Positions 25,744 through 59,249 are shown, counted from the stretch's first letter. The stretch is 64,000 nucleotides of DNA from Microcaldota archaeon (GCA_016212525.1 JACRGD010000010.1:434001-498000); one strand, 5' to 3'. Notes: generated by a model from the sequence alone, not told the origin. Program-made: numbers and translations.

Positions 25744-26235
25744 TTAACGATAAATTGAAATATCAACTATTGCCGGATAGCTTTCTCCACTAGTACGATT
25801 ATAGATAGTAGCCAGTCTTCGTAGTTTCACGATCTCCTTGGAGGTAGAAGGAGCAGCAACACCCATAGAAAGTTCTCTTCGTGGAGATGGATCAGGAAGC
25901 CGAGTAACATCTACAGCCACGTTAAAAGGAGTCGAAAGAACGACTTTGAGGCGATTTGGATCCATTGAATGTGCACAGGCAAGATTTTGAGCATCTAACC
26001 TCTGATCTTCCCAGGAAATAGCAAGACCGAGCCGGGTCAGGGAAGTACATGCAGTGGAAGGTGAAGGCGGCCCAAAGAGCAGGCCAGAAACACGAACTGC
26101 CTCCTTAGAGAGATCTTCGCTTTGATAATCGAGATAAGTTTTAACTCCGTACCAATAGGAAAGTAGGCCTACAAGTGCCAAAAGAAATATTACTGTCGCC
26201 ATTATGGCATCAAAGCTAAAGTATTGTCCTTTCAT
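25744..26235 (-). CDS. Pilin-like membrane protein
   Basis: MKGQYFSFDAIMATVIFLLALVGLLSYWYG: KGQ followed by a single hydrophobic N-terminal helix. Confidence 0.65.
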   Translation of the reverse strand: MKGQYFSFDAIMATVIFLLALVGLLSYWYGVKTYLDYQSEDLSKEAVRVSGLLFGPPSPSTACTSLTRLGLAISWEDQRLDAQNLACAHSMDPNRLKVVLSTPFNVAVDVTRLPDPSPRRELSMGVAAPSTSKEIVKLRRLATIYNRTSGESYPAIVDISIYR

Positions 26236-26840
26236 GAAGATCCTTCCTCTTGAAGCAGAGTAATGTTCTCACCATCATTTCTTAATACTAAAACATTATC
26301 GCAAGCATTTGAATGTAAAACACCATCTGAAAGACACCTGCCGGAAAATAGATATTTATAGGTGGGTAATCGGTAGGAATAGTTGAAATCGGCATATTCA
26401 CCGGGCCAGTCAAAGAACATAAGGTTAGATGGAGTAAGCGGCGCAAAGTTAACCGAATAAGGATGGTTAAGCAAGGTTTTGGGGAATTGATAGCGATATT
26501 CAAAACCAGCACCGGCCCTAACTGATAGAGACAAAACATCAACAAAGCCCTGACCAGTCTCCTTGGCAAGGGCATTTTGCTTGGCCGGAAGTTCAGCCTG
26601 CTGGGATTGGTTTATGACAAAAAATGCCAGAACAACGGCCAGCATGAATACAGAAACATAAACAAGAAATTCTACTGCGACCTGACCCCGAAGCAGCGCA
26701 ACAAACTCTTTTGAATTTCTCGGATTGTTAGAAATCGGCATATTCAGAGGTGTTTTAGATTGCGAAAGTTGGGAAGCCGGGGATATGGAGCCCGTGCTCA
26801 TTTCTTTAGAAGTGGAACGCGTGTCCAAGGATTCATTCAA
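26232..26840 (-). CDS. Archaeal type IV pilin-like protein (class III signal)
   Basis: RGQVAVEFLVYVSVFMLAVVLAFFVINQ matches [K/R]GQxxxEF. Likely start is nearer M34 (about 26741). Confidence 0.65.
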   Translation of the reverse strand: MNESLDTRSTSKEMSTGSISPASQLSQSKTPLNMPISNNPRNSKEFVALLRGQVAVEFLVYVSVFMLAVVLAFFVINQSQQAELPAKQNALAKETGQGFVDVLSLSVRAGAGFEYRYQFPKTLLNHPYSVNFAPLTPSNLMFFDWPGEYADFNYSYRLPTYKYLFSGRCLSDGVLHSNACDNVLVLRNDGENITLLQEEGSS

Positions 26841-27243
26841 GGACTACCAGCTCCACAATACCATCCCGGTTCATGACACTAACTGGAAGAAGACCAGACC
26901 GATCTGAGATGGAAGTTCCGCGAACTTTGGCAATGGTTGGAGAAACAGAATCGAAATAGCCGTTTGAAGTCTTTATCCTAAGAGAAACTTCACCGCTTTG
27001 AACTGAAAGAGAGGAAGTGGTCGGAGGAAGATTCAGCAGAATGGATCTTTGGGCACCTGCACCCTGGGAGTAGACAAGATTCATAGTATCCGAAAGCGAA
27101 CGAACAGTGGCATCTGCCTGATTTTTGGCACTATCTTCAGAACCTACAGTCGAAAGCGAGTATAATAGAAGTAATACAGGAATGGAGAATGCTGCGATGG
27201 TTGCAAACGTCAGAAAAAATTCCATTGAGCTTTGACCTTTCAT
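26833..27243 (-). CDS. Archaeal type IV pilin-like protein (class III signal)
   Basis: MKGQSSMEFFLTFATIAAFSIPVLLLLYSL matches KGQxSxEF. Confidence 0.75.
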   Translation of the reverse strand: MKGQSSMEFFLTFATIAAFSIPVLLLLYSLSTVGSEDSAKNQADATVRSLSDTMNLVYSQGAGAQRSILLNLPPTTSSLSVQSGEVSLRIKTSNGYFDSVSPTIAKVRGTSISDRSGLLPVSVMNRDGIVELVVLE

Positions 27244-27247
27244 AACA

Positions 27248-28810
27248 TTAGCACCTCGCATTACCCTCACAGGAAATATCGCCAAGACCATAGGCCGAAA
27301 TTGCCGAAGAACTTAAAGTAAATATACCCGTAGAAAGATCAGTCGAAGAACAAGCACCAGGTGTTCGGCAGCCAGGCATCCCACGAACCTTTATGCCAGT
27401 AATAGTACTATTGAAAATTTCCCGATCCAGATGACTTCGACCAGCATAGACAGTCGGATTTACATACTGACCAATTACAAAGGTTTCAAGGCCAAATGGA
27501 CTGCGGCGTGAATAGGAATCTGAAAAGAGCCGCTGTAAATAAGATGGAGCAAGTGGACTGTTAGAATAGTCACCGCAAAGAGTGAAGTCCCGGATTCGCT
27601 CGATACCATATACACCCGGACCAGATCGAGTTATGTTTACGAATTTTCGAGTTGGATCGTCACGAAGCTCATCGGTTGAATACGCGCTTAGTATAAGAGC
27701 ACATTTCCCGATAGAGCCACCAGTTGGAGAGGGACAATCATAGCGGGAATCGGTCGGATTGAACCCAACTGAAACAATGAATGGATTTCTTGTGGACCGG
27801 CCGGCAGAATAATCGAAATAGGCAGTACATGCAGAGGTCCGATAACTAACAGGCATGAATGTATTTGCTTCACCAACAGTCGAACAGGTAGAAGGGGTAG
27901 AGGTAGAAGGAGAGGGTGCGGCAGTCAAAAGATATGCACCAAATTCCTCATAACCAGGAATCGAAAGGATGTCTTCGAAACGTCCTACAAGAACATATAG
28001 AGGACGATCTGCAGGTGCAATAGAAATCGCTGCAGGCATATTACCGGAGGGAGACGAACTTGCAATGGCCAATGGACCATAGAACCATCCTGCACCACCA
28101 GCAGATGGGGCACGTGCAAGAGTAACCGCGCGTGAGGAACTGCCGGAATTGAAATAGAACTGCCTGAACATCGGCCTTCCATGTGCCTGACTTTCACGAA
28201 CCAATGCAGGATCAACCAAGCCAGTTATATTAAGGGCTCCTTTGATCTTGTAATCTTTTGAAGTAGAAGAGGAATTTGCATAATCGGAAATCTTGAGTTT
28301 GATATCAAAGGAGTAATTAACAGTATCATAAGTATTCTGAACTAAATCAAAATTCTTAACAGAATAGTCAGAAATGTATGCACCAGTTGATTTCAACGAG
28401 GAATTGAAACCGGAAATCCATGCATTAAGTGAAGAGGACGCATCAAGTGGAATACCTACCGAGTCTTCGAAATAATTTGGAGATGCAGTGCCATTAACCA
28501 AAAGCGAGAAGAGAGCACGCCGGGCATAAGCAAATTCGTCGCTTGAACCTGCATCCGCCGGTCGGACCGGATGATTTATCGAATGCTCATTGAGCAGGAA
28601 AAGACCCCGATTAAGAGTTATATCTGCAACCTGGCCAACTTTTGCAGGAGTTATCTGTGCCGCTGCCAGTTCGACATTGGACTCCCTATAGAATTCTGAG
28701 TAAAATCGCTCAGAGGATTCAATGCTTTTTACCCAAACTGAAATAGATAAGAGGATGTAGGTGAGGACAAGGAAAATTGCAACTACAAACATGAAACCTT
28801 TTTTATTCAA
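27248..28810 (-). CDS. Large pilin-like/surface protein with single N-terminal TM
   Basis: MNKKGFMFVVAIFLVLTYILLSISVWVKS followed by a 490-aa Ser/Gly/Pro-rich ectodomain; embedded in the pilin-like cluster. Confidence 0.65.
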   Translation of the reverse strand: MNKKGFMFVVAIFLVLTYILLSISVWVKSIESSERFYSEFYRESNVELAAAQITPAKVGQVADITLNRGLFLLNEHSINHPVRPADAGSSDEFAYARRALFSLLVNGTASPNYFEDSVGIPLDASSSLNAWISGFNSSLKSTGAYISDYSVKNFDLVQNTYDTVNYSFDIKLKISDYANSSSTSKDYKIKGALNITGLVDPALVRESQAHGRPMFRQFYFNSGSSSRAVTLARAPSAGGAGWFYGPLAIASSSPSGNMPAAISIAPADRPLYVLVGRFEDILSIPGYEEFGAYLLTAAPSPSTSTPSTCSTVGEANTFMPVSYRTSACTAYFDYSAGRSTRNPFIVSVGFNPTDSRYDCPSPTGGSIGKCALILSAYSTDELRDDPTRKFVNITRSGPGVYGIERIRDFTLCGDYSNSPLAPSYLQRLFSDSYSRRSPFGLETFVIGQYVNPTVYAGRSHLDREIFNSTITGIKVRGMPGCRTPGACSSTDLSTGIFTLSSSAISAYGLGDISCEGNARC

Positions 28811-28819
28811 GTCATCACC

Positions 28820-29467
28820 CTAAATGAAAATAGTAAGACGTACAAGTCTCACATATGGAGTCGGAACCAGATCGCCGCCCACAGAACTTCCACCTGAACC
28901 CGGAGGGTTGTTGAGATTAAGAGAACAGGTAATCAGATTTCCATCGCCCAATCCAACCCCGGATGCACCATGACAACTCAGATAACTAAACGGATTTGGG
29001 GCTGCCTTTGCAAGACGACCAGAGTAACCAAACGAGATTACCTGAGATGAAACGCTTAGTTTTTTCTTCACTGGAGCATGAAGCTCGGGAGCTGAAAGAG
29101 AAATGGTTTCTGAGGTACTATATACCCGATTCCAGCTTCGGCCTCCACTTTCACTCAATTCAACAGTATATCCAAATTGATTTGGAACCATGCGACCGAT
29201 AGTATTACGCACTAAGGATGGAGAAGAGATATCATTAAGCGCGATTTTATCAAGAACCGAACCCGAATAACTGCCGCATTCTGAAAAGGCAGTGGTGCAT
29301 GGAGTACTTGAGAGAGCGAGCAGTGTATCCCGGCTTAGGTAATGACCCTGCGTCAGCAGGTAGTAATAAGAAGTAGGAATGCTCGAGAAGAAAATTAGCG
29401 AATAGATGGCAATTAGAGCCAGGCTAAATGCTATAAACGCATCGAGCGAGAAGATGAACGCGCGCAT
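28820..29467 (-). CDS. Pilin-like membrane-anchored protein
   Basis: MRAFIFSLDAFIAFSLALIAIYSLIFFSS; N-terminal helix resembles that of the 25744-26235 product (FSxDAxxA). Confidence 0.6.
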   Translation of the reverse strand: MRAFIFSLDAFIAFSLALIAIYSLIFFSSIPTSYYYLLTQGHYLSRDTLLALSSTPCTTAFSECGSYSGSVLDKIALNDISSPSLVRNTIGRMVPNQFGYTVELSESGGRSWNRVYSTSETISLSAPELHAPVKKKLSVSSQVISFGYSGRLAKAAPNPFSYLSCHGASGVGLGDGNLITCSLNLNNPPGSGGSSVGGDLVPTPYVRLVRLTIFI

Positions 29468-30108: not shown

Positions 30109-30564
30109 TTAATTTATTATACTCGAATTTTCGTTTATCAAGTTCTCGGTTTGGTTAAAACCAGTACAGGAACCATATTCTGTTCCGCATTCGTTGCAGA
30201 TCTTATAAGCATATGAGCAGCCTTCCTTAAGGCAGGGAATCCGCTCGCCTGGATTGCAAACCTTCACCCATTCGCATCCGCCCCAAGTGCCACCAACGCA
30301 GGTACTAAAACCACTACAGCTCGCAACACGGCAATACTGTTTTTGTCCATCAAGACAGGAGGGCGCGGAAGCCTGATCAGTAAAACTTACTTTGAATTGG
30401 GGCCGGGAAAGAGAAAACCCATAGACCACAATCAAAAAAAGGACCAGTATAGCTAAGAAAGGAAAGAAACGCCAAACCGAAGCGGAGGATTTTTTTGAAG
30501 ATACCAAAATAACAACCCGATCGAATCTATTTGTACTGCACAGAGTAAGACTGCCTTGGAACAT
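30109..30564 (-). CDS. Membrane-anchored cysteine-rich protein
   Basis: TM FFPFLAILVLFLIVVYGFSL followed by a Cys-rich domain CLDGQKQYCRVASCSGFSTCVGGTWGGCEWVKVCNPGERIPCLKEGC. Exact start uncertain. Confidence 0.6.
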   Translation of the reverse strand: MFQGSLTLCSTNRFDRVVILVSSKKSSASVWRFFPFLAILVLFLIVVYGFSLSRPQFKVSFTDQASAPSCLDGQKQYCRVASCSGFSTCVGGTWGGCEWVKVCNPGERIPCLKEGCSYAYKICNECGTEYGSCTGFNQTENLINENSSIIN

Positions 30565-31483
30565 CCAAACCGATCTTACCGATTATACTTGAAACCCCAA
30601 AGAGCCCTGAAGAACCCGAAGAAACATCAACATTGCAGATTTTAATCTCATCATAAGACGAATACGTGATGTTTGCCAGATCGGCAGCTTTCATTATAGC
30701 ATCCTTCTTTGTTCCGACCTGATCTACAAGACCTGCCCTAACAGCCTGCCTACCGCTCATGACACGACCATCAGTACTGTTGGCAAAAAGTGCGGCGTTG
30801 AGTTTTGAACCACGGTTCTGGACAACAGTGTTCTTGAATTCTGTATAAATTTCATCTACAACGGATTGAAGAATAATATGTTCTTCCGGCGTAAGTGCAC
30901 GAAACTCCGCACCTATATCCTTATGCGGACCGGACTTTATAGGAGTGATATTAAGACCAATTTTTGAAAACAGTTCGCTCAAATCGGCAAATGTAGCGAT
31001 TACACCAATACTTCCAGTAAGCGCATCTGGATCGGATATTATATAGTCGCCACCGCTTCCGACATAATAACCGCCGGATGCGGCAACTTCACGAAAATAG
31101 GAAACCTTTGGCATTTTGAGTTCTTTGTATGCATCGTAAATTTCACGGGTGGCTACAACTGAACCACCGGGCGAATTAACAACTAAAACAAGTGCACCAA
31201 TATCAGACCGCTTATCCAAAGCAGAAATCGCGGTAGCATAATCTTCAGAGCCAATTACACCTGAGGAGAGAAGACCTCCAGGCGAACTTGTTGTCGTTAT
31301 CTCCTGATCCAGATTCATTACCCCGACGCATTTACCCACGACAATTGGAGCAAACGAAGAAAGCACAAAGAACAATCCGATTATAAACAGAAAACCAACG
31401 ATCAGAACCGCAGCGGCGAGAAAAATGAAATTTCGATTACCTGGACGCTCGGGAGTAGTCTTTCGAATAGGAGGAATAGCCAT
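30527..31483 (-). CDS. sppA: Signal peptide peptidase SppA (S49 family)
   Basis: LVLVVNSPGGSVVATREIYDAY...EVAASGGYYVGSGGDYIISDPDALTGSIGV. Confidence 0.93.
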   Translation of the reverse strand: MAIPPIRKTTPERPGNRNFIFLAAAVLIVGFLFIIGLFFVLSSFAPIVVGKCVGVMNLDQEITTTSSPGGLLSSGVIGSEDYATAISALDKRSDIGALVLVVNSPGGSVVATREIYDAYKELKMPKVSYFREVAASGGYYVGSGGDYIISDPDALTGSIGVIATFADLSELFSKIGLNITPIKSGPHKDIGAEFRALTPEEHIILQSVVDEIYTEFKNTVVQNRGSKLNAALFANSTDGRVMSGRQAVRAGLVDQVGTKKDAIMKAADLANITYSSYDEIKICNVDVSSGSSGLFGVSSIIGKIGLDVPRQSYSVQYK

Positions 31484-33710: not shown

Positions 33711-34298
33711 CTATTTTTTCATCGATTTTAGAAGCGCAAAAAATTTCTCTGCAGGAAGCGTTCCGCAGCCAAGCTGCCTTGCAAAATTTAAGGCCCCCTC
33801 ATCACTCGAAATAAGAGTGGCATCGAGTTCTTTTGCAACCAAAACCAATTCAAGATCTTCCTTGCTGTCCAGAATGCCAGTTCGCATGAACTCTCGGTAT
33901 TTTTCACGCAGCTTGCGAAGCTTCTCATCATTATCAGGGTGATTGTCCTTGGCAAAATCCTCAGCTAACCGCAAGCCCTTATTGATGCGCTCGCGCACGT
34001 CTTCTATAAAATCATAAAATACTGCTGCAGGAAGCCGGATATCATAAATGCTAGGCGAGCGGATTCGAACGAAAGTCTGAAGGTTCGAATGCGATTTTTC
34101 ATCGACAAAGTTACGCAGCTCCCGAAATATTGCAGGTGGCATATAGACTTTAAGCCCAAGAGCCTTTGCCTGTTTGATAAATCCGACTACGGCGCTAGAG
34201 GGAGTCTTTCCAAAATGAGACCGTGCATATGGATTAACAAAAAGAGAAGTATCGACAACGAAAATACGATCGGAAACGGACGAGGAAGAAACCGGCAT
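33711..34298 (-). CDS. PIN-domain protein, RNA ligase partner family
   Basis: FVVDTSLFVNPYARSHFGKTPSSAVVGFIKQAKALGLKVYMPPAIFRELRNF...LVAKELDATLISSDEGALNFARQLG; encoded near the RNA ligase gene. Confidence 0.8.
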   Translation of the reverse strand: MPVSSSSVSDRIFVVDTSLFVNPYARSHFGKTPSSAVVGFIKQAKALGLKVYMPPAIFRELRNFVDEKSHSNLQTFVRIRSPSIYDIRLPAAVFYDFIEDVRERINKGLRLAEDFAKDNHPDNDEKLRKLREKYREFMRTGILDSKEDLELVLVAKELDATLISSDEGALNFARQLGCGTLPAEKFFALLKSMKK

Positions 34299-34499: not shown

Positions 34500-35588
34500 T
34501 CAGATGAGTTTTATCAAACCACGGCCAACTTCGGGAATTTTTCCACCTAGAAGAGAAGTTGCATTTAGCACAAAAGTCATTAACAAAATAAAGGCAATAA
34601 GCGGGAAAATACAAATGGCCGAAACAAGATGCTTGGCAAGATCATTTATCCTAAAGGTCATCATATCATTAAGCGTATCCCAGCTCGACCGGACTCGGTT
34701 TATCATTGAAAAAGTAGTAAGTATGCTGGGACTTTCGCACTGATAAGCATTTAGGTTACCATTTGCAGGCAATTTACAGAGCAGATGGAAATTGCCACCT
34801 GATTGAGAGACACTTGGATCAACCTGTATCATTTGTGCCTGCGTGTGGGGCAGGGAAACGGTCGCCACCAGAATATAACTAAAGGGAAACACAAAATATA
34901 ATCCAAACGTCAGTGCCATTATATATGCACCTGCACCCCGGGTCGGAGGAAATGCACGAAGCGCAACACCGACAGAGAAGAAAAAACCCGCGTAGGACTT
35001 GACGAAATTGAGCGTATGAACCATCAAATAGTTAACATACATGTAGAAGGAAAGGGAAGCAGCAACAGTCTGAATTCGCTCTGCAATTATCTTAAAGGCA
35101 ACACCAGACGCCTGCTCAGACATAAATATTTCCATGAAAACAGATGCGGCGGTTTCAACTGGAATACTTAGATAATAAAGGAAATTCATAAAAGACTGGA
35201 CACAGTTGGTCGGGGTTTCAAGATACAGTTTCATCCAATCAATAAGAGTGGTGGGTGCCTCATGATCAGTGCTACTTAGAATGCGATAACCACTTGAACA
35301 GCTAACCGCAGGATCACCAAAAGAAGTGAGATAAAGACACCTTGCAAGACCAGTATCTGGATTTGCGATTAGACTTTCACCATAGTTTACGATCCCGCCG
35401 GCAATAAGAGAAACGATTAGCACGGTAGATGCCGCATAAGTCAGCTCCTCCTTTGCGCTTTGCTCAAAATTTGGCATGTTAAAGAGCCGGGCGATCATGA
35501 TCATAAACATAGTCAAAACTACAGAAAGGATTGCAGCTCCAAGTGAGATAAAAACCCAATCATGATAAATGCCCTGTTCAAATGCCAT
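34500..35588 (-). CDS. Polytopic membrane protein, six-member tandem family (member 6 in transcription order)
   Basis: FNMPNFEQSAKEELTYAASTVLIVSL; VALRAFPPTRGAGAYIMALTFGLYFVFPFSYI; C-term VGRGLIKLI. Confidence 0.8.
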   Translation of the reverse strand: MAFEQGIYHDWVFISLGAAILSVVLTMFMIMIARLFNMPNFEQSAKEELTYAASTVLIVSLIAGGIVNYGESLIANPDTGLARCLYLTSFGDPAVSCSSGYRILSSTDHEAPTTLIDWMKLYLETPTNCVQSFMNFLYYLSIPVETAASVFMEIFMSEQASGVAFKIIAERIQTVAASLSFYMYVNYLMVHTLNFVKSYAGFFFSVGVALRAFPPTRGAGAYIMALTFGLYFVFPFSYILVATVSLPHTQAQMIQVDPSVSQSGGNFHLLCKLPANGNLNAYQCESPSILTTFSMINRVRSSWDTLNDMMTFRINDLAKHLVSAICIFPLIAFILLMTFVLNATSLLGGKIPEVGRGLIKLI

Positions 35589-36661
35589 CAGATCAACCTC
35601 GTCAAAGAACTGATATCTACTTCCTCACCTAAAGCAGCACTAAGACCACGGGTTGCCTGAGTAAAGACAAGAACGTTAAAAGTAGGTGCAACAAAAGCGA
35701 TGATAAACGCGAAAGCCATCGTACTAATTGGAAATAACATCAATACCAAAAAGGTTCCTCCAAACACAGTGCTTACCGCCTGACCAATAGCACCGAAAAC
35801 CCCACTGACCAAATCAGTAAATCCACCAGTGAAGTTGTTGTGGAAAAAGTCGCTCATATTGTCGACAAAATTGCCATTGTCATGGAAGTAATTCGTAAGC
35901 ATACCCCTAAAGGAAACCAGAGGACCATGAGCAGAATAAAGAGTTGTAAAGGTTGTAAGGGCCAATACGGGAAATAGGAATAAGAAAGACACTGAAATTG
36001 CGATCAGAGTACCTCCGAGCCGACGGGTCGGAGTAAAGCAGCGCAGGAAAAGACCGATCGGAAGATAATACTTAAGAAACGCCTCAATAAAGAATACATA
36101 GACGTAGAACTGCGCAACAGTAACAATATAGGAAACTGCAAGACCGCTGGTCATATTATAGAGAACTGATTTGATGGGCGATGCAAAACCAGCAAGCGGA
36201 GTAACGGTAAGACCAACACCCATAGGGCGGGCATATGGAGTAACTGAAGCCGACTGATCGACATACATGTTCATGAGATAATTTAGTTCTAGCCAGCCCT
36301 TCACGTCTTCTGCCATCGCAAGAATTCCTACTGAAAGAGCATGGTAGATATTGTCATTAGCCTGATCTATACCTCCAGGAATGTATTCCATTGGAAGAAT
36401 TGTACCGACTTTTATGTATGTCATGGCCCCAAGCAATGAAAAGACAATAACCATAATGAATACCGAGGCAAAAAGTTCATAGATTTCCTGTTTCACATAT
36501 GCAGTGAGGTTGGGATTTCGCATAATCGATGCCCATACATAAATTAATGTAAGAATGGATACGGAAGCACCTATGGCAAGAGCTGAGTATGGAACCCAGG
36601 TCCAAAATGCAGGACGGGTTGAGGTTATGATGCTGCTTATTGTGTTTGCGTCCACGACCAT
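35588..36661 (-). CDS. Polytopic membrane protein, six-member tandem family (member 5)
   Basis: MRNPNLTAYVKQEIYELFASVFIMVIVF; IGLFLRCFTPTRRLGGTLIAISVSFLFLFPVLAL; C-term GEEVDISSLTRLI. Confidence 0.82.
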   Translation of the reverse strand: MVVDANTISSIITSTRPAFWTWVPYSALAIGASVSILTLIYVWASIMRNPNLTAYVKQEIYELFASVFIMVIVFSLLGAMTYIKVGTILPMEYIPGGIDQANDNIYHALSVGILAMAEDVKGWLELNYLMNMYVDQSASVTPYARPMGVGLTVTPLAGFASPIKSVLYNMTSGLAVSYIVTVAQFYVYVFFIEAFLKYYLPIGLFLRCFTPTRRLGGTLIAISVSFLFLFPVLALTTFTTLYSAHGPLVSFRGMLTNYFHDNGNFVDNMSDFFHNNFTGGFTDLVSGVFGAIGQAVSTVFGGTFLVLMLFPISTMAFAFIIAFVAPTFNVLVFTQATRGLSAALGEEVDISSLTRLI

Positions 36662-36673
36662 TTGCTCAGCTCA

Positions 36674-37960
36674 TCAAATTATTTTTAGGAATGAAAGGAA
36701 GTTAATATCGTTCCTAAAGAACCTCGCCATCTCACGGGCTACCGTCAGAGTCAGAAAAATATTAACGACAGGAAGCATAAGACTCATTATAACTATATAA
36801 TATACTGCACCACGAACAAGATCAAAGGCAACATTTAGGGCTCCGCCAAGGAAGAATGGGATAAACACGCCTCCAGTAACAAACATAGCCACCAGCAGTG
36901 ATGCAGAAACACTTGCAAGACCGCCTGATGAAACTAAAGATCGCAGCGAGGCGGATGGATCAGAAAGATTAAGCCGCATAATACGGTGGGCCTCGTAATC
37001 GAGTACGAAGGTAAATGGGTAGAAGACAATCAGTGCAAAACCCAGCGAAAGGAATGCTTCTCCTGCACCCCGAGTATAGGGAAACGATCGAAGCAAAATA
37101 CCCACAGGCAGGAAAAGCGTGAACATGTATTGTTTTATCATGCACAGGGTTATGATATGCAAAAGCCACTCACCAAGTCCCAGCGAAAGAGCCTGCAAGG
37201 TCATAGAAAGAACATCGATAAAGGGCCGCAGGATGGGGCCGAGGTTGAAGGTATACATTGCACGCCAGCTCACACCAAAGCTCAAAGTGGCAGAATAGAT
37301 AGTATGAATTACGTTGTTGTAGAGCAAAAGCATACTGTAGTGTTTTGTCATATCATTTACCATAGAACGGGCAACAGCCATAGACGCGTCGATCATCAGA
37401 CGCGGCTGTAGAGTCGTCTGATCGACATAAACAGCATAATCAGAACCCGGACCTGGCCCAACAGGAGATGCGCGAAATGCAAGCCAGCCATTCGCTAGGA
37501 TAAGAGGACCGATAATAAAGACAAGCCTGATTATGGTAAGACCCATCTGAAATAGTTCATCTTTGGCAAGGGTCGCCATTGAAGGCGAATTGAAAAACTG
37601 CGAAATCATATATAAAAATGCGATTCCGATAAGCACGATCACCATCACGAGCATTGCCGGAGCGATCCACTGCGAAATTGCAATAAGACCCAGCGAGGAA
37701 GCATTTGCAGAAACCGAAGCAGAACAAGTAGCAGGTTCAAATGCAGAAAGAATAGCAGTATATCCACTGCGGGCAGTTGATCCGACTCCCCCGACAGTAG
37801 AGCCGGTGGCAGTAAGAAAATCCTGTGCTCCCGAATCGACAGTATTTCTTACGTCATCAAAAAGACCCACAATGTCAGTCGCTGCAAGTATTCCACAAAG
37901 TAAAAGCAATGAGAAGAAAATAACACGGGACGAGGGGAAACGTGAGGGTTTGGAGTCCAT
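36674..37960 (-). CDS. Polytopic membrane protein, six-member tandem family (member 4)
   Basis: Signal-like N-term; FNSPSMATLAKDELFQMGLTIIRLVFII; VGILLRSFPYTRGAGEAFLSLGFALIVFYPFTFV; C-term INFLSFLKII. Confidence 0.82.
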   Translation of the reverse strand: MDSKPSRFPSSRVIFFSLLLLCGILAATDIVGLFDDVRNTVDSGAQDFLTATGSTVGGVGSTARSGYTAILSAFEPATCSASVSANASSLGLIAISQWIAPAMLVMVIVLIGIAFLYMISQFFNSPSMATLAKDELFQMGLTIIRLVFIIGPLILANGWLAFRASPVGPGPGSDYAVYVDQTTLQPRLMIDASMAVARSMVNDMTKHYSMLLLYNNVIHTIYSATLSFGVSWRAMYTFNLGPILRPFIDVLSMTLQALSLGLGEWLLHIITLCMIKQYMFTLFLPVGILLRSFPYTRGAGEAFLSLGFALIVFYPFTFVLDYEAHRIMRLNLSDPSASLRSLVSSGGLASVSASLLVAMFVTGGVFIPFFLGGALNVAFDLVRGAVYYIVIMSLMLPVVNIFLTLTVAREMARFFRNDINFLSFLKII

Positions 37961-39345
37961 CAGATTAACCTCGTAAGACCTGCGATCTCTATGTCGCCGC
38001 CAAAGATTATGGCCAATGATCTAATACCTGCAATAGTTGCCAGAAGTCCAAGTAAAGAGAAAAACATGGACCAGAAAGTAAGGCGCGAGAAGGATTCTAT
38101 ATAGCCTCCAGGTTCCCAGATGTGGGAAACAAACTGATCCAGACGACTTAGACGCGAGATGGAATTGAACCAGTTCTGAGTAGTATCATGTGCAGTTGCA
38201 ATGGTCGCTCGTCTTTGATCATCACTAAGAGCCGCACCAGAATTACTCGAGAAGTCATAATTGTTACCTGGATTAATCACAGTACCAGGATTATCCCAAT
38301 ATCCCCGCTCCATACGATTTAGGAATTCTTCATCAGTAACTCCTTCCATTTGTCTTAGCGAATTATGCAACTCAGCAGCAGTAACACGATTGGACAGAAG
38401 TGGCAGATAACCATCAACATACATTGTAGATGCGATTGGTGGATCTCCCAAAATGGCCTGGGGATTATCATTAAGAATAGCCGCAGAGCGAACGTGAGCC
38501 TTGAGATCGATGGCAAGAAGGGCGGCAAAGGCATAGAAAGAAGGAAGGATGAAATATAGTGATAACGCAATTGCAAGAAGCAAACCGCCAAGTTTGCGGG
38601 TGAAACTAAAGGCCCTAAGTATGGCACCCATAACAAAGAACGTAGGATAGAGACCAGTTGCAATATAACGAATTATAACTTCCTGGAACTTATTGAGCAT
38701 CATAAGTTTTATTGCCCAGTCAAAGAGAGTTGATTTTGCATAATTACCCATTGCAAAGAAACCCTTAAAGGGATTGAAATTGAAAAATCCGGTTATCTCA
38801 AATATAAATTCTACATTAAGAGTAAATTCGGCAATCATGGAAGTTGCGATGTAACTTGAATAGATTTCAAATCCAGTTTGTTTGGCCTCATCATATAGTT
38901 CACGCAGATACCAGATGGCAAGTTTAATGTGACACGAGGGAATGCCACTATAGACTGACCCGGTCGCAGCAGCAAGATTTGGACCGCAGATGTCAAGATT
39001 AGTATAAACACGACTGGACGATCCACCACTTAGAGGAACAACCGGAACAGGAGCAGTAGTAGGACTAACGATACCGCCAGTTGCCAAATGAGCTGCACCG
39101 ATTCCCATTGCGCCCTGAAGAATTCCATCGGCAGCATAAGAACCAAAAACCAAAAGAGATATGAGAACAGCAGAATACAGCAATTCAACAAGTTCAGACT
39201 TGGCCCATGATTTGAACTTATCATTTGAGATGAAAACGGAAATGATGTAGACTATGCCAACCAGGATTACCCCGATCATCAGAAGGACACCGGCAAGACC
39301 GATCCAGTTTCCCCAAACAACAGCAAAGTCTATTGGACTGACCAT
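37960..39345 (-). CDS. Polytopic membrane protein, six-member tandem family (member 3)
   Basis: ISNDKFKSWAKSELVELLYSAVLISLLVFG; MGAILRAFSFTRKLGGLLLAIALSLYFILPSFYAF; C-term GGDIEIAGLTRLI. Confidence 0.82.
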   Translation of the reverse strand: MVSPIDFAVVWGNWIGLAGVLLMIGVILVGIVYIISVFISNDKFKSWAKSELVELLYSAVLISLLVFGSYAADGILQGAMGIGAAHLATGGIVSPTTAPVPVVPLSGGSSSRVYTNLDICGPNLAAATGSVYSGIPSCHIKLAIWYLRELYDEAKQTGFEIYSSYIATSMIAEFTLNVEFIFEITGFFNFNPFKGFFAMGNYAKSTLFDWAIKLMMLNKFQEVIIRYIATGLYPTFFVMGAILRAFSFTRKLGGLLLAIALSLYFILPSFYAFAALLAIDLKAHVRSAAILNDNPQAILGDPPIASTMYVDGYLPLLSNRVTAAELHNSLRQMEGVTDEEFLNRMERGYWDNPGTVINPGNNYDFSSNSGAALSDDQRRATIATAHDTTQNWFNSISRLSRLDQFVSHIWEPGGYIESFSRLTFWSMFFSLLGLLATIAGIRSLAIIFGGDIEIAGLTRLI

Positions 39346-39353
39346 TCCCTAAA

Positions 39354-41024
39354 TCAACTCTTAAGTATAATGAATTTGGTAATTGTATTTATAGCGGCAA
39401 TAGTTATTAATGTCGAGAGTGCCGGCATGAAAAGACCCAGAAGCGACATCGAGGCCACATAATCCATAAAAGGCGTAAATTCCGCCATAGTTAGTGCATT
39501 TAGGAATCCTTCACTTATAAGAGCAGAAAGTTTAGTGAGTGCAGTTGATCCGGCACCACTGGCGAAAGTACCAATCCCGGGAATAGATGCAAAAGGACCC
39601 TCTTTTGGATTTAGAACATAACCCCAGAATCCGTATTTGAAAGGACCGCACAACGTTCCGATCAAAAATTGATTACTATGATAACCGCTGAACCCGACGC
39701 TTCGGTAAATGTCCATGTTTATTAGATAGGTAAGGGGGAAAACGATCTGGAAACCAAAAGCCAGTGCAATCATAAATGCACCGGCTTCCCTTGTCGCAGG
39801 TATGAATCGCAGAATTATTCCCGCCGGAAGAAGGAAGGGGATAGTGATACTATCGATAATCTGCAAAAGCGCAACCTGGGCATTGATACTCCCGTAAATA
39901 GTAATAGTACCATACCCAATAACATTTGTAAGGGAAACGAAAGTATCGATTCCTGGGAAGACCTTATAGGTTTGAGTTACTGCAAATTCACCAAGCCGCT
40001 TGCTAAAGGTGTTTAGAACCGAAGTGCAGGACTGAATAGTATAGATATCGTAAATTCCGTCGAGCAGATTTTGGGAAACGTAGCCGCTCATAAGCGACAT
40101 CGCAGCATTTGGAAGCGAGTGCGAACCGGAAGAAGTAACAGTACCGGGAAACATCGCAGTGGCGATCGCGTTGCTCCCCAAAAATAACCCGACAACAAAT
40201 ACCGCCATAACATAGGAACTAAGCAGGTTTGACAATTCTACATTAAGATATGCTTCCCATTCTGGAACCCGAAGGATCTTTGAAAATGCATAGACAAGCA
40301 ATATGAATGCGCCCACCAGAGCAGCAATCTGCATCAAGGTGGTTCCGTAGGTCTGAAGGCCAAGAGGAGCAAAAAAGTCGTCTGATCCCTGGAAATAACC
40401 GATTATGTCAAAGAGAACTACATAGATAACTACAAGAACAAACGTGGCTCCAAGAGTAGCGTTGGCATAGACCGTTGCACGGGCACGGGTTTCTGCACCC
40501 ATACTCTGACCCATCAGATAAATTATGCAGGTCAGAAGAACCATGAACAAAATTATCATAAAGAAAATCTGCTTCGCACTATCGGCCAGCTGTGAGAAAA
40601 GGATTCCCAGGCCTTCAGCACGAACAGAGGTAGATGCCCCGCTTGGCAGAATTACATAGGTTACGATCAGGATCGCAAATGCTACTCCGGCCGCAGTTAT
40701 CATACTATTAGCCCAGACAACCGCACGGGCGTTAATCTCAGTACCAAGCAGAGGTCCAAGCAGATACGCAATCGCTGCCAGTACAACCATAAAGATTGCA
40801 AATGCAGCAGCCAGGAGAGTAAGCAAATTGATATTGGAAGTTATAGTAGAGCGGGGATTTAGTGCAGTATCAGAAAATGGTTGGACTGTAGTTGCAAACA
40901 AAGGCGCACATAAGAGCACCAGGGAGATTAGAAAAACAGGAAGGAAACGGAAACTCAAAAACCTCGAAGAGAGAATATCAGAACCGGATGAAACAGACCC
41001 AGCGGAGTTAGTCATATCAAACAA
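39354..41024 (-). CDS. Polytopic membrane protein, six-member tandem family (member 2), with triplicated N-terminal TM module
   Basis: LRVPEWEAYLNVELSNLLSSYVMAVFVVG; AGIILRFIPATREAGAFMIALAFGFQIVFPLTYLI; preceded by two related TM modules (LLGTEINARAVVWAN, QSMGAETRARATVYAN). Confidence 0.82.
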   Translation of the reverse strand: MFDMTNSAGSVSSGSDILSSRFLSFRFLPVFLISLVLLCAPLFATTVQPFSDTALNPRSTITSNINLLTLLAAAFAIFMVVLAAIAYLLGPLLGTEINARAVVWANSMITAAGVAFAILIVTYVILPSGASTSVRAEGLGILFSQLADSAKQIFFMIILFMVLLTCIIYLMGQSMGAETRARATVYANATLGATFVLVVIYVVLFDIIGYFQGSDDFFAPLGLQTYGTTLMQIAALVGAFILLVYAFSKILRVPEWEAYLNVELSNLLSSYVMAVFVVGLFLGSNAIATAMFPGTVTSSGSHSLPNAAMSLMSGYVSQNLLDGIYDIYTIQSCTSVLNTFSKRLGEFAVTQTYKVFPGIDTFVSLTNVIGYGTITIYGSINAQVALLQIIDSITIPFLLPAGIILRFIPATREAGAFMIALAFGFQIVFPLTYLINMDIYRSVGFSGYHSNQFLIGTLCGPFKYGFWGYVLNPKEGPFASIPGIGTFASGAGSTALTKLSALISEGFLNALTMAEFTPFMDYVASMSLLGLFMPALSTLITIAAINTITKFIILKS

Positions 41025-42330
41025 TCCTCGAAAGACCGATTATTTCGGCTTCACCGCCGATCAGAAGCGAGACGTTCCTAAAGAGAGTTATGGTAAAGAT
41101 TATCTCAATCACAGTAGTAATAGTTATCAGAATAATGAAGGGACCGATAGTTCCAACTTCCTCAACTATGAAAAAGTAAAGGCCGGCAGTAGTACTTGAA
41201 GGCATAAGAGGATTTCTAAAAAGAGTCATGCTAAAGTCGCCGGTTAAACCGAGCATAAATTTAGACATGTTAAAGACAGTAGTAAAGACAGAAGTAGCGG
41301 CATTTACACCCGCTGAAAAGAGATTACTCGCACTACAGAGAAGTCGCACGAGCGCCGGACCATCACAAACACCACCATTACCAGAAGTCTCGTGTTCTAT
41401 TACATCAGGAGCACGAAATTCATTCATCACGGCCTGCGTACTATGGCTTAGTTCAGTAGTCCGAGCACCACCACCAGGAAGACCAAAAAGATTTCTAAAC
41501 CAGCTCTCGTCCTGGGGAGTCTTGAAAACGCTCGAATGGACAGGAGTATATGTAAAATCAGCCGGCTGGTAAATATCGAAAATCAGATAATTTGTGAATA
41601 TCAAAGTGAGAGGATAAATAAAATAGATCGCAAAACAGAACGCGATAACCGTTGATCCGGTTGTCCGGGTTATAGGAAGCGCACGCAGGAAAAGACCCAA
41701 AGGAAGAAGAAGGAGCGGGACTGTGTCACGCGCAAAATAGAGGAGAAACTGTTTGGCCCATACAACAGCCATTAGCGAACTTATCGCTTCGACAATGATA
41801 GTGTGGGCCTGACTCAAAAGAGTAAGACCTGAAAAAGGCACGAATGAAAATGAAGTTACAGCAGCAGCGAATACAGGAGCACCGATTGGGAATGAAATTG
41901 TCGAAAGAAAACCGATAATAATTTCAAATATGTATAAGCCCAGATATTGTCCTTTGAGTTTCTGGAATAATATTTCCAAGGATGCATCAGCCAGCTGAAT
42001 ATGACTAATAGTATAATGACCCGCACCGGTACCTCCGGCAGTATTAAGTGAAATCGATGAACCGGATATGGCGGCTGAGAGTAGCGCACTAGTCATAGAA
42101 TTGAAAGTGTAGTCCGTAGTAAGCCAAAAACCAATGAGAATGATAGAAAAAATAACCGCTGCGATCTCCTCCTTTGCCATTGCTGAGAGGGCAGAGTTCT
42201 GAAGAAGAGGTGCGATCAAATAGAGAAAGGCGGAGAAAACAATACTAATGAGTAATGCCGTAATGATTAGCGGTAGCGCTCCTGGAGGGAGTGATAGATT
42301 AAGTAAGAGCGGAACTAGAAGATCCATCAT
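41017..42330 (-). CDS. Polytopic membrane protein, six-member tandem family (member 1, operon-proximal)
   Basis: LQNSALSAMAKEEIAAVIFSIILIGFW; LGLFLRALPITRTTGSTVIAFCFAIYFIYPLTLIF; C-term GGEAEIIGLSRIV. Confidence 0.82.
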   Translation of the reverse strand: MMDLLVPLLLNLSLPPGALPLIITALLISIVFSAFLYLIAPLLQNSALSAMAKEEIAAVIFSIILIGFWLTTDYTFNSMTSALLSAAISGSSISLNTAGGTGAGHYTISHIQLADASLEILFQKLKGQYLGLYIFEIIIGFLSTISFPIGAPVFAAAVTSFSFVPFSGLTLLSQAHTIIVEAISSLMAVVWAKQFLLYFARDTVPLLLLPLGLFLRALPITRTTGSTVIAFCFAIYFIYPLTLIFTNYLIFDIYQPADFTYTPVHSSVFKTPQDESWFRNLFGLPGGGARTTELSHSTQAVMNEFRAPDVIEHETSGNGGVCDGPALVRLLCSASNLFSAGVNAATSVFTTVFNMSKFMLGLTGDFSMTLFRNPLMPSSTTAGLYFFIVEEVGTIGPFIILITITTVIEIIFTITLFRNVSLLIGGEAEIIGLSRIV

Positions 42331-57737: not shown

Positions 57738-59249
57738 TTAGTCACTCGATGCATCAACTGGAGTTGGCGGGATACGTATGACATCCGAACCCGAGTCAAG
57801 TAACAATGGAGGAGTGGTTACTACGTCCGAAGCATCCTCGCTTACTCCCGCATCTGGGGCACAAACAAGACGAACACCAAGAGTTACTGTACTTCGAACT
57901 CTTGTCGAACCAATAGAAACACCCGCAGTTATAGAATACTCTGGAATAGTGGAAGCCGGAGGAGCTAGATCATAGGGCATTTCAGAAGCCCTAAATCTTC
58001 GCACAAGAACTGCAAATTGATTGCATCCACCTGGAGAAACTTGATCCATGATCGCATAATCGCTACTACCGTGAGGTTGAACATCTCTAGCAACAAGACC
58101 AAAAGATCCAAAATCCACAATAGTATCCAAAGATAATCCAAAGCCACTGCCAGAAGCAGTGCAACTTAGGTCACGGAAAACTGCAGTGCTGGGAATGCAC
58201 CGTGCACATGCATTTTCCAAGGTAACTTCTGCATCGCCCACACCATAACGGAAGCCAGCTCGAGTTGCACCAATAGTAAGAAGCAAAGTATTCCCGTAGA
58301 AATACTCGTTGTGTACTGGAACCCGTTCGTGAGAAGGAACATCTCCAAAGATTGCAATCCTCCTACAGGACCCATCAGGAGTTTGCTCATAAATATCCAT
58401 AAGGGGATTAAGAGTCCCTATACTCAGATCACGCAACACTAAGGTATAATAATGATCAATTCCATCATTGCCGCGCAAAGTAAATGGAAGCGAACCACCA
58501 GGATTATCGGCTGTTGACATTTCAAGAACTGCCCTTAGAGGTGCATAAGTACAGGAAAGGGATGGTCCGGTGGTTGAATTGCAGAAAGAGCGAACCGGAG
58601 GCATAATTGAAGAATCAGATGAACCAGAATCCAAAGGACCCATATCCGAACCGGAAGAATCAACAACTGAAACATCCAGCACCCCAGCATCCATCTCAAC
58701 TGGACGATTGACATCGACTACGACAGCATCGGTTCCTGCATCAGCCATTGTAGATTGAACACAAAGACGAGTAACTTTCACTAATGCTGCAGAGTTTGAT
58801 TCAGTATCCACACCTCGAACTTCAACTGCAACATCATCCCCATTTGGCAGATGTGAAACACCGCCACCGGGGCCTTCATGAACACGAATAACATCTTCAA
58901 AGCTACCGGCAGTAATCCTAAAGCGAACAGACGGAGCTGTTCCTCCACCAACACTCGCCGAGTCCGCACCAAGAAGATCGACTTCGATATTCGAAAATAC
59001 TACTGAGCTACCTCGAACCAGATTTCTCGAAGTCTCACTAGCATTACATTGCAATTCTGGCGGACGAGGATTTGAAACATCAGAACTACAGCCCGCAAGA
59101 CCCATGCCTGCAAGACCACTAACAGCAAGAAGCGAAAATGCAGAAAATCTCGATGCGCGTTCAGGAGCACGATGAGAAGCATCAGACGGATGGGCATCAG
59201 AATGAACTGGACTTACATTACCTGGATTACAAACTAATCTTTTTGTCAT
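57738..59249 (-). CDS. Predicted surface lipoprotein with Asp/Ser/Ala-rich linkers
   Basis: Lipobox-like GMGLAGCSSD; linkers DAGTDAVVVDVNRPVEMDAGVLDVSVVDSSGSDMGPLDSGSSDSS and DAGVSEDASD. Confidence 0.75.
   Translation of the reverse strand: MTKRLVCNPGNVSPVHSDAHPSDASHRAPERASRFSAFSLLAVSGLAGMGLAGCSSDVSNPRPPELQCNASETSRNLVRGSSVVFSNIEVDLLGADSASVGGGTAPSVRFRITAGSFEDVIRVHEGPGGGVSHLPNGDDVAVEVRGVDTESNSAALVKVTRLCVQSTMADAGTDAVVVDVNRPVEMDAGVLDVSVVDSSGSDMGPLDSGSSDSSIMPPVRSFCNSTTGPSLSCTYAPLRAVLEMSTADNPGGSLPFTLRGNDGIDHYYTLVLRDLSIGTLNPLMDIYEQTPDGSCRRIAIFGDVPSHERVPVHNEYFYGNTLLLTIGATRAGFRYGVGDAEVTLENACARCIPSTAVFRDLSCTASGSGFGLSLDTIVDFGSFGLVARDVQPHGSSDYAIMDQVSPGGCNQFAVLVRRFRASEMPYDLAPPASTIPEYSITAGVSIGSTRVRSTVTLGVRLVCAPDAGVSEDASDVVTTPPLLLDSGSDVIRIPPTPVDASSD

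Follow-up and report, generated by a model that had tools for sequence, protein, structure and literature searches.

We describe a cluster of six genes for homologous membrane proteins in the Micrarchaeota, which probably encodes the membrane platform of a chromosomally encoded machine related by descent to type IV secretion systems (T4SS), with six non-equivalent positions that are most likely arranged in one hetero-hexameric ring. Almost all Micrarchaeota have the set with its order kept, which suggests that these small symbiotic archaea assemble a transfer machine from six different proteins, whereas the better-known bacterial machines repeat a single one. The cluster was analyzed in a stretch of 64,000 nucleotides (the window, C8:434001-498000) of a Micrarchaeota genome of 1.47 Mb.

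Six homologous genes in the window

The six genes, referred to as slots A to F, all lie on the minus strand and encode putative VirB6-like proteins. The first, slot A (41017-42330), encodes a polytopic protein of 437 aa, and slot B (P0005; 39354-41024), with a TTG start and an N-terminal extension, one of 556 aa. Slots C (37960-39345) and D (36674-37960) encode proteins of 461 and 428 aa, followed by slot E (35588-36661; 357 aa; AlphaFold model m08455e6bd941, pLDDT 82.5) and, last of the six, slot F (34500-35588; 362 aa; AlphaFold model medeb12e42061, pLDDT 85.8). The frames and junctions agree with an earlier, sequence-only reading of this DNA, which had reported six consecutive minus-strand genes with overlaps or gaps of about 12 bp at most: A and B overlap by 8 bp, B and C are separated by 8 bp, C and D overlap by 1 bp, D and E are separated by 12 bp, and E and F overlap by 1 bp.

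The same reading had proposed two landmarks common to all six proteins. The first (AKxEL) is present in 6/6 with an invariant Glu; its Lys is absent from slot B, which reads LNVEL. The second (LRxFPxTRxxG) was found as claimed in 6/6 proteins, with G, L, R, T, R, G and the following Pro invariant. An additional, third landmark is a C-terminus particular to each slot, for example GGEAEIIGLSRIV in slot A, FGGDIEIAGLTRLI in slot C, and LGEEVDISSLTRLI; slot D ends in FRNDINFLSFLKII.

The six window genes encode homologous membrane proteins. A profile built from any five slots detected the remaining one at E 9e-10 to 2e-19. The controls, 100 shuffles and 14 other membrane proteins, all gave E >= 0.25. 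Since the leave-one-out values are far below those of the controls, the resemblance exceeds chance. Pfam and NCBIfam searches of the six proteins returned no useful match. No match was obtained in a PDB sequence search with the slot C profile, and no relatives of the family were found on viral contigs.

Several other window genes lie downstream of the six. A PIN/RNase-like gene (33711-34298) recurs at this side of the cluster in 22 loci and an SppA-like (S49) protease gene (30527-31483) in 12 loci, both named from the look of their sequence. At 25744-29467, several successive minus-strand genes encode proteins whose N-termini resemble type IV pilins; this series is partly kept in relatives.

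Number, order and orthology across the Micrarchaeota

A scan of genome contigs with the single slot C sequence returned no relatives. A profile scan did find relatives, and those on genome contigs all came from Micrarchaeota, "ainarchaeum" or other archaeal MAGs, including the complete genome of Ca. Fermentimicrarchaeum limneticum; these relatives, with the searches across the phylum, place the window in the Micrarchaeota. The family was present in 40/40 genomes sampled nearby and in 134/147 genomes of the phylum. The window genome itself contains a further cluster of six at about C3:101.3-108.7 kb, in addition to the one in the window. It also has a solo gene (C8:600516) and a weak match on contig C2.

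Phylum-wide presence bears on the reading of the cluster as a conjugative mobile element residing in the window, as might be thought from the T4SS that the same genome has on the mobile-looking contig C2. We rejected this reading as extremely improbable: it is largely refuted by the occurrence of the family in the great majority of genomes and by the synteny with housekeeping genes around the cluster that is kept in relatives. Mobile-type VirB6, in contrast, is sporadic (33/296 genomes).

The window and the 61 loci found by the profile scan with slot C made up a set of 62 loci, in which 40 clusters were complete. Exactly six family genes in a fixed order were found in 39/40 of these, while one cluster has seven; in the seven-gene cluster, slot D looks broken. 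In locus L118 (12948-16891), the slot D region consists of two overlapping ORFs, probably a broken gene. Because the first loci had been found via slot C, the six-gene count was redone in 16 near-complete genomes, free of that bias. Here, 18/18 clusters have six genes, one of them split 3+3 over contig ends; split matches within one frame were joined by hand, several were ORF-checked, and some genomes contributed to both sets. Gene order is conserved in related genomes.

Each position from A to F is its own orthologous group, or nearly so. In a tree of 307 proteins, slots A, B, C and E were monophyletic in 51/51 cases, D in 47/51 and F in 49/51. When deeper lineages and a VirB6 outgroup were added, A, B, C and F each grouped in 53/53 cases, E in 53/53 together with two D proteins, and D in 47/53; support at the deeper nodes of the slot tree is modest. 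In two loci (L109, L114), slot D groups with the slot E of its own cluster, a pattern that gene conversion or replacement would leave. Slot by slot, the second cluster of the window genome falls inside the same clades as the window cluster. Because both clusters sort in this way, the six-position set predates the cluster duplication.

In the window genome, slot C of the second cluster has a Cys-rich insertion, with 24 Cys after the motif. Among second-type clusters (L037:1396-3279, L120:8993-13741), slot C ranges from 627 to about 1580 aa, and a large Cys-rich lipoprotein-like ORF comes next after the cluster.

VirB6 likeness and the linked ATPases and pilins

The sequence-only reading had offered a loose analogy to VirB6/TrbL/CedA channel subunits, to be checked against PF04610 (TrbL/VirB6). 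No match to PF04610 was found in the six proteins, nor genome-wide at E <= 0.001, and when hhalign was run directly against a bacterial VirB6 profile, built from R388 TrwI and eight relatives, the six scored at most 3.5%, which is not significant. Indirect support for the analogy came from a profile bridge. In hhalign, the six-slot profile scored 90.4% (P 1.4e-6) against 19 archaeal mobile-element VirB6 proteins; single slots reached 15-86% and controls no more than 2.5%. The archaeal mobile-element VirB6 proteins, in turn, scored 56% (P 1.1e-4) against the R388 VirB6 family. As a single query, the VirB6-like protein of contig C2 matched members of the family (L161, L164, L162 and the second cluster of the window genome), the matches lying around residues 155-260 and reaching E 3e-5 at best.

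Fold ranks point in the same direction. With the slot E model, a Foldseek search of the PDB placed R388 VirB6 at ranks 1 and 3 (probability 0.69 at rank 1), and with the slot F model R388 VirB6 stalk chains ranked 2, 3, 10 and 14 (probability 0.66 at rank 2). R388 VirB6 had the highest probability for both models, but the E values of 0.17-0.66 (0.17-0.19 for these likeliest matches) are weak and the TM-scores low. The profile bridge and the fold ranks, together with the VirB4-type ATPases and VirB2-like pilins encoded in the same operons, support the six, indirectly, as distant VirB6-like (CedA/TedA-like) subunits.

No ATPase of this type has a match anywhere within the window, in agreement with the earlier observation; the genome encodes two elsewhere (C3:77826-79400 and C5:194079-195491), neither adjoining the window six. 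The sequence-only reading had suggested looking for linked ATPases (VirB4, HerA or TadA), and one such type was found in relatives: in six loci (L124, L127, L129, L130, L175, L176), a TM protein gene in two copies and then a VirB4-type ATPase gene lie downstream of the six family genes, in the same orientation. L174 and L178 have gene sets identical to those of L129 and L130 and evidently represent the same genomes. After the ATPase come a coil protein and a protein of about 800 aa (about 858 aa), as far as each locus reaches; L130 shows the arrangement up to the end of its locus. In hhalign, the ATPase scored 99.1% (P 1e-18) against mobile-element VirB4 and 97.5% against HerA; its Walker B motif, VVLDEAW, is VirB4-like, while that of HerA reads LLLIEEAH. 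Of 147 genomes, 130 have both the family and the ATPase, 10 have neither and 7 have one alone (Fisher p 2.8e-10, on counts compiled manually from the family and ATPase tables). A correlation between many family genes and two or more ATPases per genome (p 1.2e-14) was dropped as an argument, because the second ATPase appears to be part of the solo module and because family gene counts from about 13 upwards are lower bounds.

The remaining operon proteins are less easily assigned. The TM protein was considered as VirB3 or as the N-terminus of VirB4; it scored 9.5% against R388 VirB3 and 1.4% against the PrgI-type family, and because these values are low we leave it without a name. Comparison of the TM, coil, ~858 aa and two-TM proteins with R388 VirB5/8/9/10 and TrwA/TrwB gave no match, nor could any of the operon proteins be identified as a coupling protein or a relaxase accessory. 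In L124 (18264-18563) and other loci, an ORF of its own, about 99 aa long, encodes the C-terminal part of the ATPase, which is fused in the window genome (L051:7827-9404). The small, Cys-bearing two-TM protein (L124:18568-18933, L051:9416-9805), with no R388 VirB match, is kept between the ATPase and the coil protein.

VirB2-like pilins are the third component. The free-standing ones are small, mostly 100-134 aa, and have two TM helices and a hydrophobic N-terminus; their genes lie upstream of the six in L124, L127, L117, L175, L176 and L130. In hhalign they scored 91.2% (P 1e-6) against R388 VirB2 (TrwL), while other membrane proteins reached no more than 0.4% and a reversed profile 4.6%; their Pfam matches to TrbC and T4SS_pilin fall below the curated cut-offs. 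The N-terminus of slot B in the window contains two tandem VirB2-like pilin domains (40389-40922, minus strand; residues about 35-128 and 127-212). A profile of six free-standing Micrarchaeota pilins, built without the window sequence, matched both stretches (E 3e-9), and an iterated profile gave 1.2e-19 and 7.5e-19. Overall, two pilin domains were found in 16 slot B proteins and one in slot A of L085 and L092. The N-termini of the slots show a weak likeness to the pilins (44% for slot D, 4-13% for the others). Further free-standing pilin matches lie on C5 and C8 of the window genome, and across the phylum a pilin was found in 135/147 genomes, being missing from nearly the same genomes as the family and the ATPase.

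If the six formed a transporter or surface-polymer complex outside the T4SS, then their ATPase and pilin neighbours would be coincidental or serve another process. The lack of a Pfam match, the failure of the direct bacterial VirB6 tests and the weak Foldseek E values are what such a complex would have in its favour. Nonetheless, we consider it improbable, with VirB4-type ATPases and VirB2-like pilins operonic with the six in several lineages, the three components co-occurring, and both the profile bridge and the fold ranks pointing to VirB6.

In the tree, the solo genes make up a clade of their own, the seventh, with support 0.989. In 10/10 loci (L177, L182-L190), the solo gene lies directly before one TM protein gene and an ATPase gene, and in seven loci (L182, L183, L185-L187, L189, L190) a pilin gene lies just upstream of it. 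The module on C5 of the window genome (TM protein, ATPase, coil protein) is likely the partner of the solo gene at C8:600516. Since solo members have their own ATPase, single-gene channels appear functional alone, which lends some weight to the view that the six are separate VirB6-like homo-oligomeric channels, each for a different substrate or stage and all served by one common ATPase; the six-slot complex, moreover, is one that we infer. If the genes were alternatives, however, their number should differ between clusters, and the clusters always have six genes in a fixed order, with slots that remain orthologous across duplicated clusters. For this reason we regard separate channels as unlikely, though less so than a complex outside the T4SS. 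One complex rather than redundancy, as first proposed from the sequence, is favoured by the fixed number, order and orthology, from which we infer the assembly itself. The paired solo and six-gene versions offer a natural experiment in how an asymmetric VirB6 ring could arise from a symmetric one.

A candidate machine and its known counterparts

Herein, we outline how such a machine may be arranged. The six proteins would constitute the membrane platform of a T4SS-derived machine in the Micrarchaeota, with the six slots filling non-equivalent positions, most likely in one pseudo-symmetric hetero-hexameric ring; a pentamer with an accessory subunit is an alternative geometry. The AKxEL and LRxFPxTRxxG loops and the GGDxEIxGLTRLI C-terminus are predicted to face the cytoplasm. 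This placement was made because of the charge bias, K+R amounting to 10.7-12.6% on the motif side vs 4.3-4.5% on the opposite side, which supports a cytoplasmic position of all three landmarks indirectly. A VirB4-type ATPase, encoded elsewhere in the genome, would dock at the cytoplasmic side. The variable loops, including the Cys-rich insertion that slot C has in the second cluster, would lie outside, and the VirB2-like pilins, whether free-standing or fused to slot B, may assemble on the outer side. By analogy with Ced and Ted, a first guess at the cargo is DNA exchanged with the host or with kin; protein is possible.

In R388, the VirB6 (TrwI) stalk is a pentamer and the proposed base of VirB2 pilus assembly (PMC9259494; PDB 8rt9, 7o3v, 8rtd). 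It shares with the six a long-helix membrane platform and is the top or near-top fold match of the slot E and F models. However, it is a homo-pentamer from one gene, compared with six genes in the Micrarchaeota, and direct sequence similarity is undetectable. The Rickettsia rvh T4SS has five divergent VirB6 paralogs, RvhB6a-e; for a-d, arrayed orthologs are present in most Anaplasmataceae (PMC2653234). In Rickettsia as in the Micrarchaeota, highly divergent VirB6 paralogs fall into discrete orthologous groups in a reduced-genome, host-associated lineage. The five Rickettsia paralogs match PF04610 and occur with VirB8-VirB11/VirD4 kept, whereas the archaeal set is six, strictly fixed and without a PF04610 match.

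Ced of the Sulfolobales and Ted of the Thermoproteales are DNA-transfer systems with one channel protein, CedA or TedA, and the N-terminus of CedA resembles the pilin CedA1 (PMC9905601). The Micrarchaeota system resembles them in being archaeal, chromosomal and T4SS-derived, with a VirB2-like pilin, a polytopic VirB6-like channel and a VirB4-like ATPase, and its channel N-termini likewise, though weakly, resemble the pilin. Unlike Ced and Ted, it belongs to another phylum and has six fixed divergent paralogs, two extra TM protein copies in the linked operons and pilin domains fused to VirB6-like proteins. We judge the chances to be evenly balanced that it is a third archaeal T4SS-derived transfer machine besides these two. 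Its VirB6 platform would then be an obligate hetero-hexamer in which each of six ancient paralogs has a position of its own, with a related, presumably homo-oligomeric solo version persisting beside it and with VirB2 domains fused to platform subunits in some lineages. We found no description of the six-gene system in the open-licence literature, which was covered by titles, abstracts and term counts with few full texts.

The nearest outside sequence relative found is the VirB6-like protein of the PrgI-type T4SS on contig C2 (L048). Unlike the six-gene family, this T4SS has a single VirB6-like gene beside VirB3/PrgI and VirB4, and its distribution is sporadic. The C2 gene precedes PrgI/VirB3 and VirB4, and a weak VirB2-like match lies just before it. 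Contig C2 also encodes methyltransferases, an Orc1/Cdc6-like protein and an integrase-like protein, and looks mobile.

ARMAN cells are reported to make pili-like contacts with larger cells (PMC5498576). As it would be present in roughly nine tenths of the Micrarchaeota sampled, a transfer machine of this kind would be a concrete candidate for the exchange of molecules between DPANN archaea and their hosts. Apart from this system, Asp/Ser-rich lipoproteins, a subtilisin-like protein and a Ser/Thr kinase, encoded at 57738-59249 in the window and in L045 (12297-13136), L046 (8122-11905) and L047 (14456-16000), have a bacterial (Myxococcota-like) look in an archaeal genome, which indicates either transfer or contamination.
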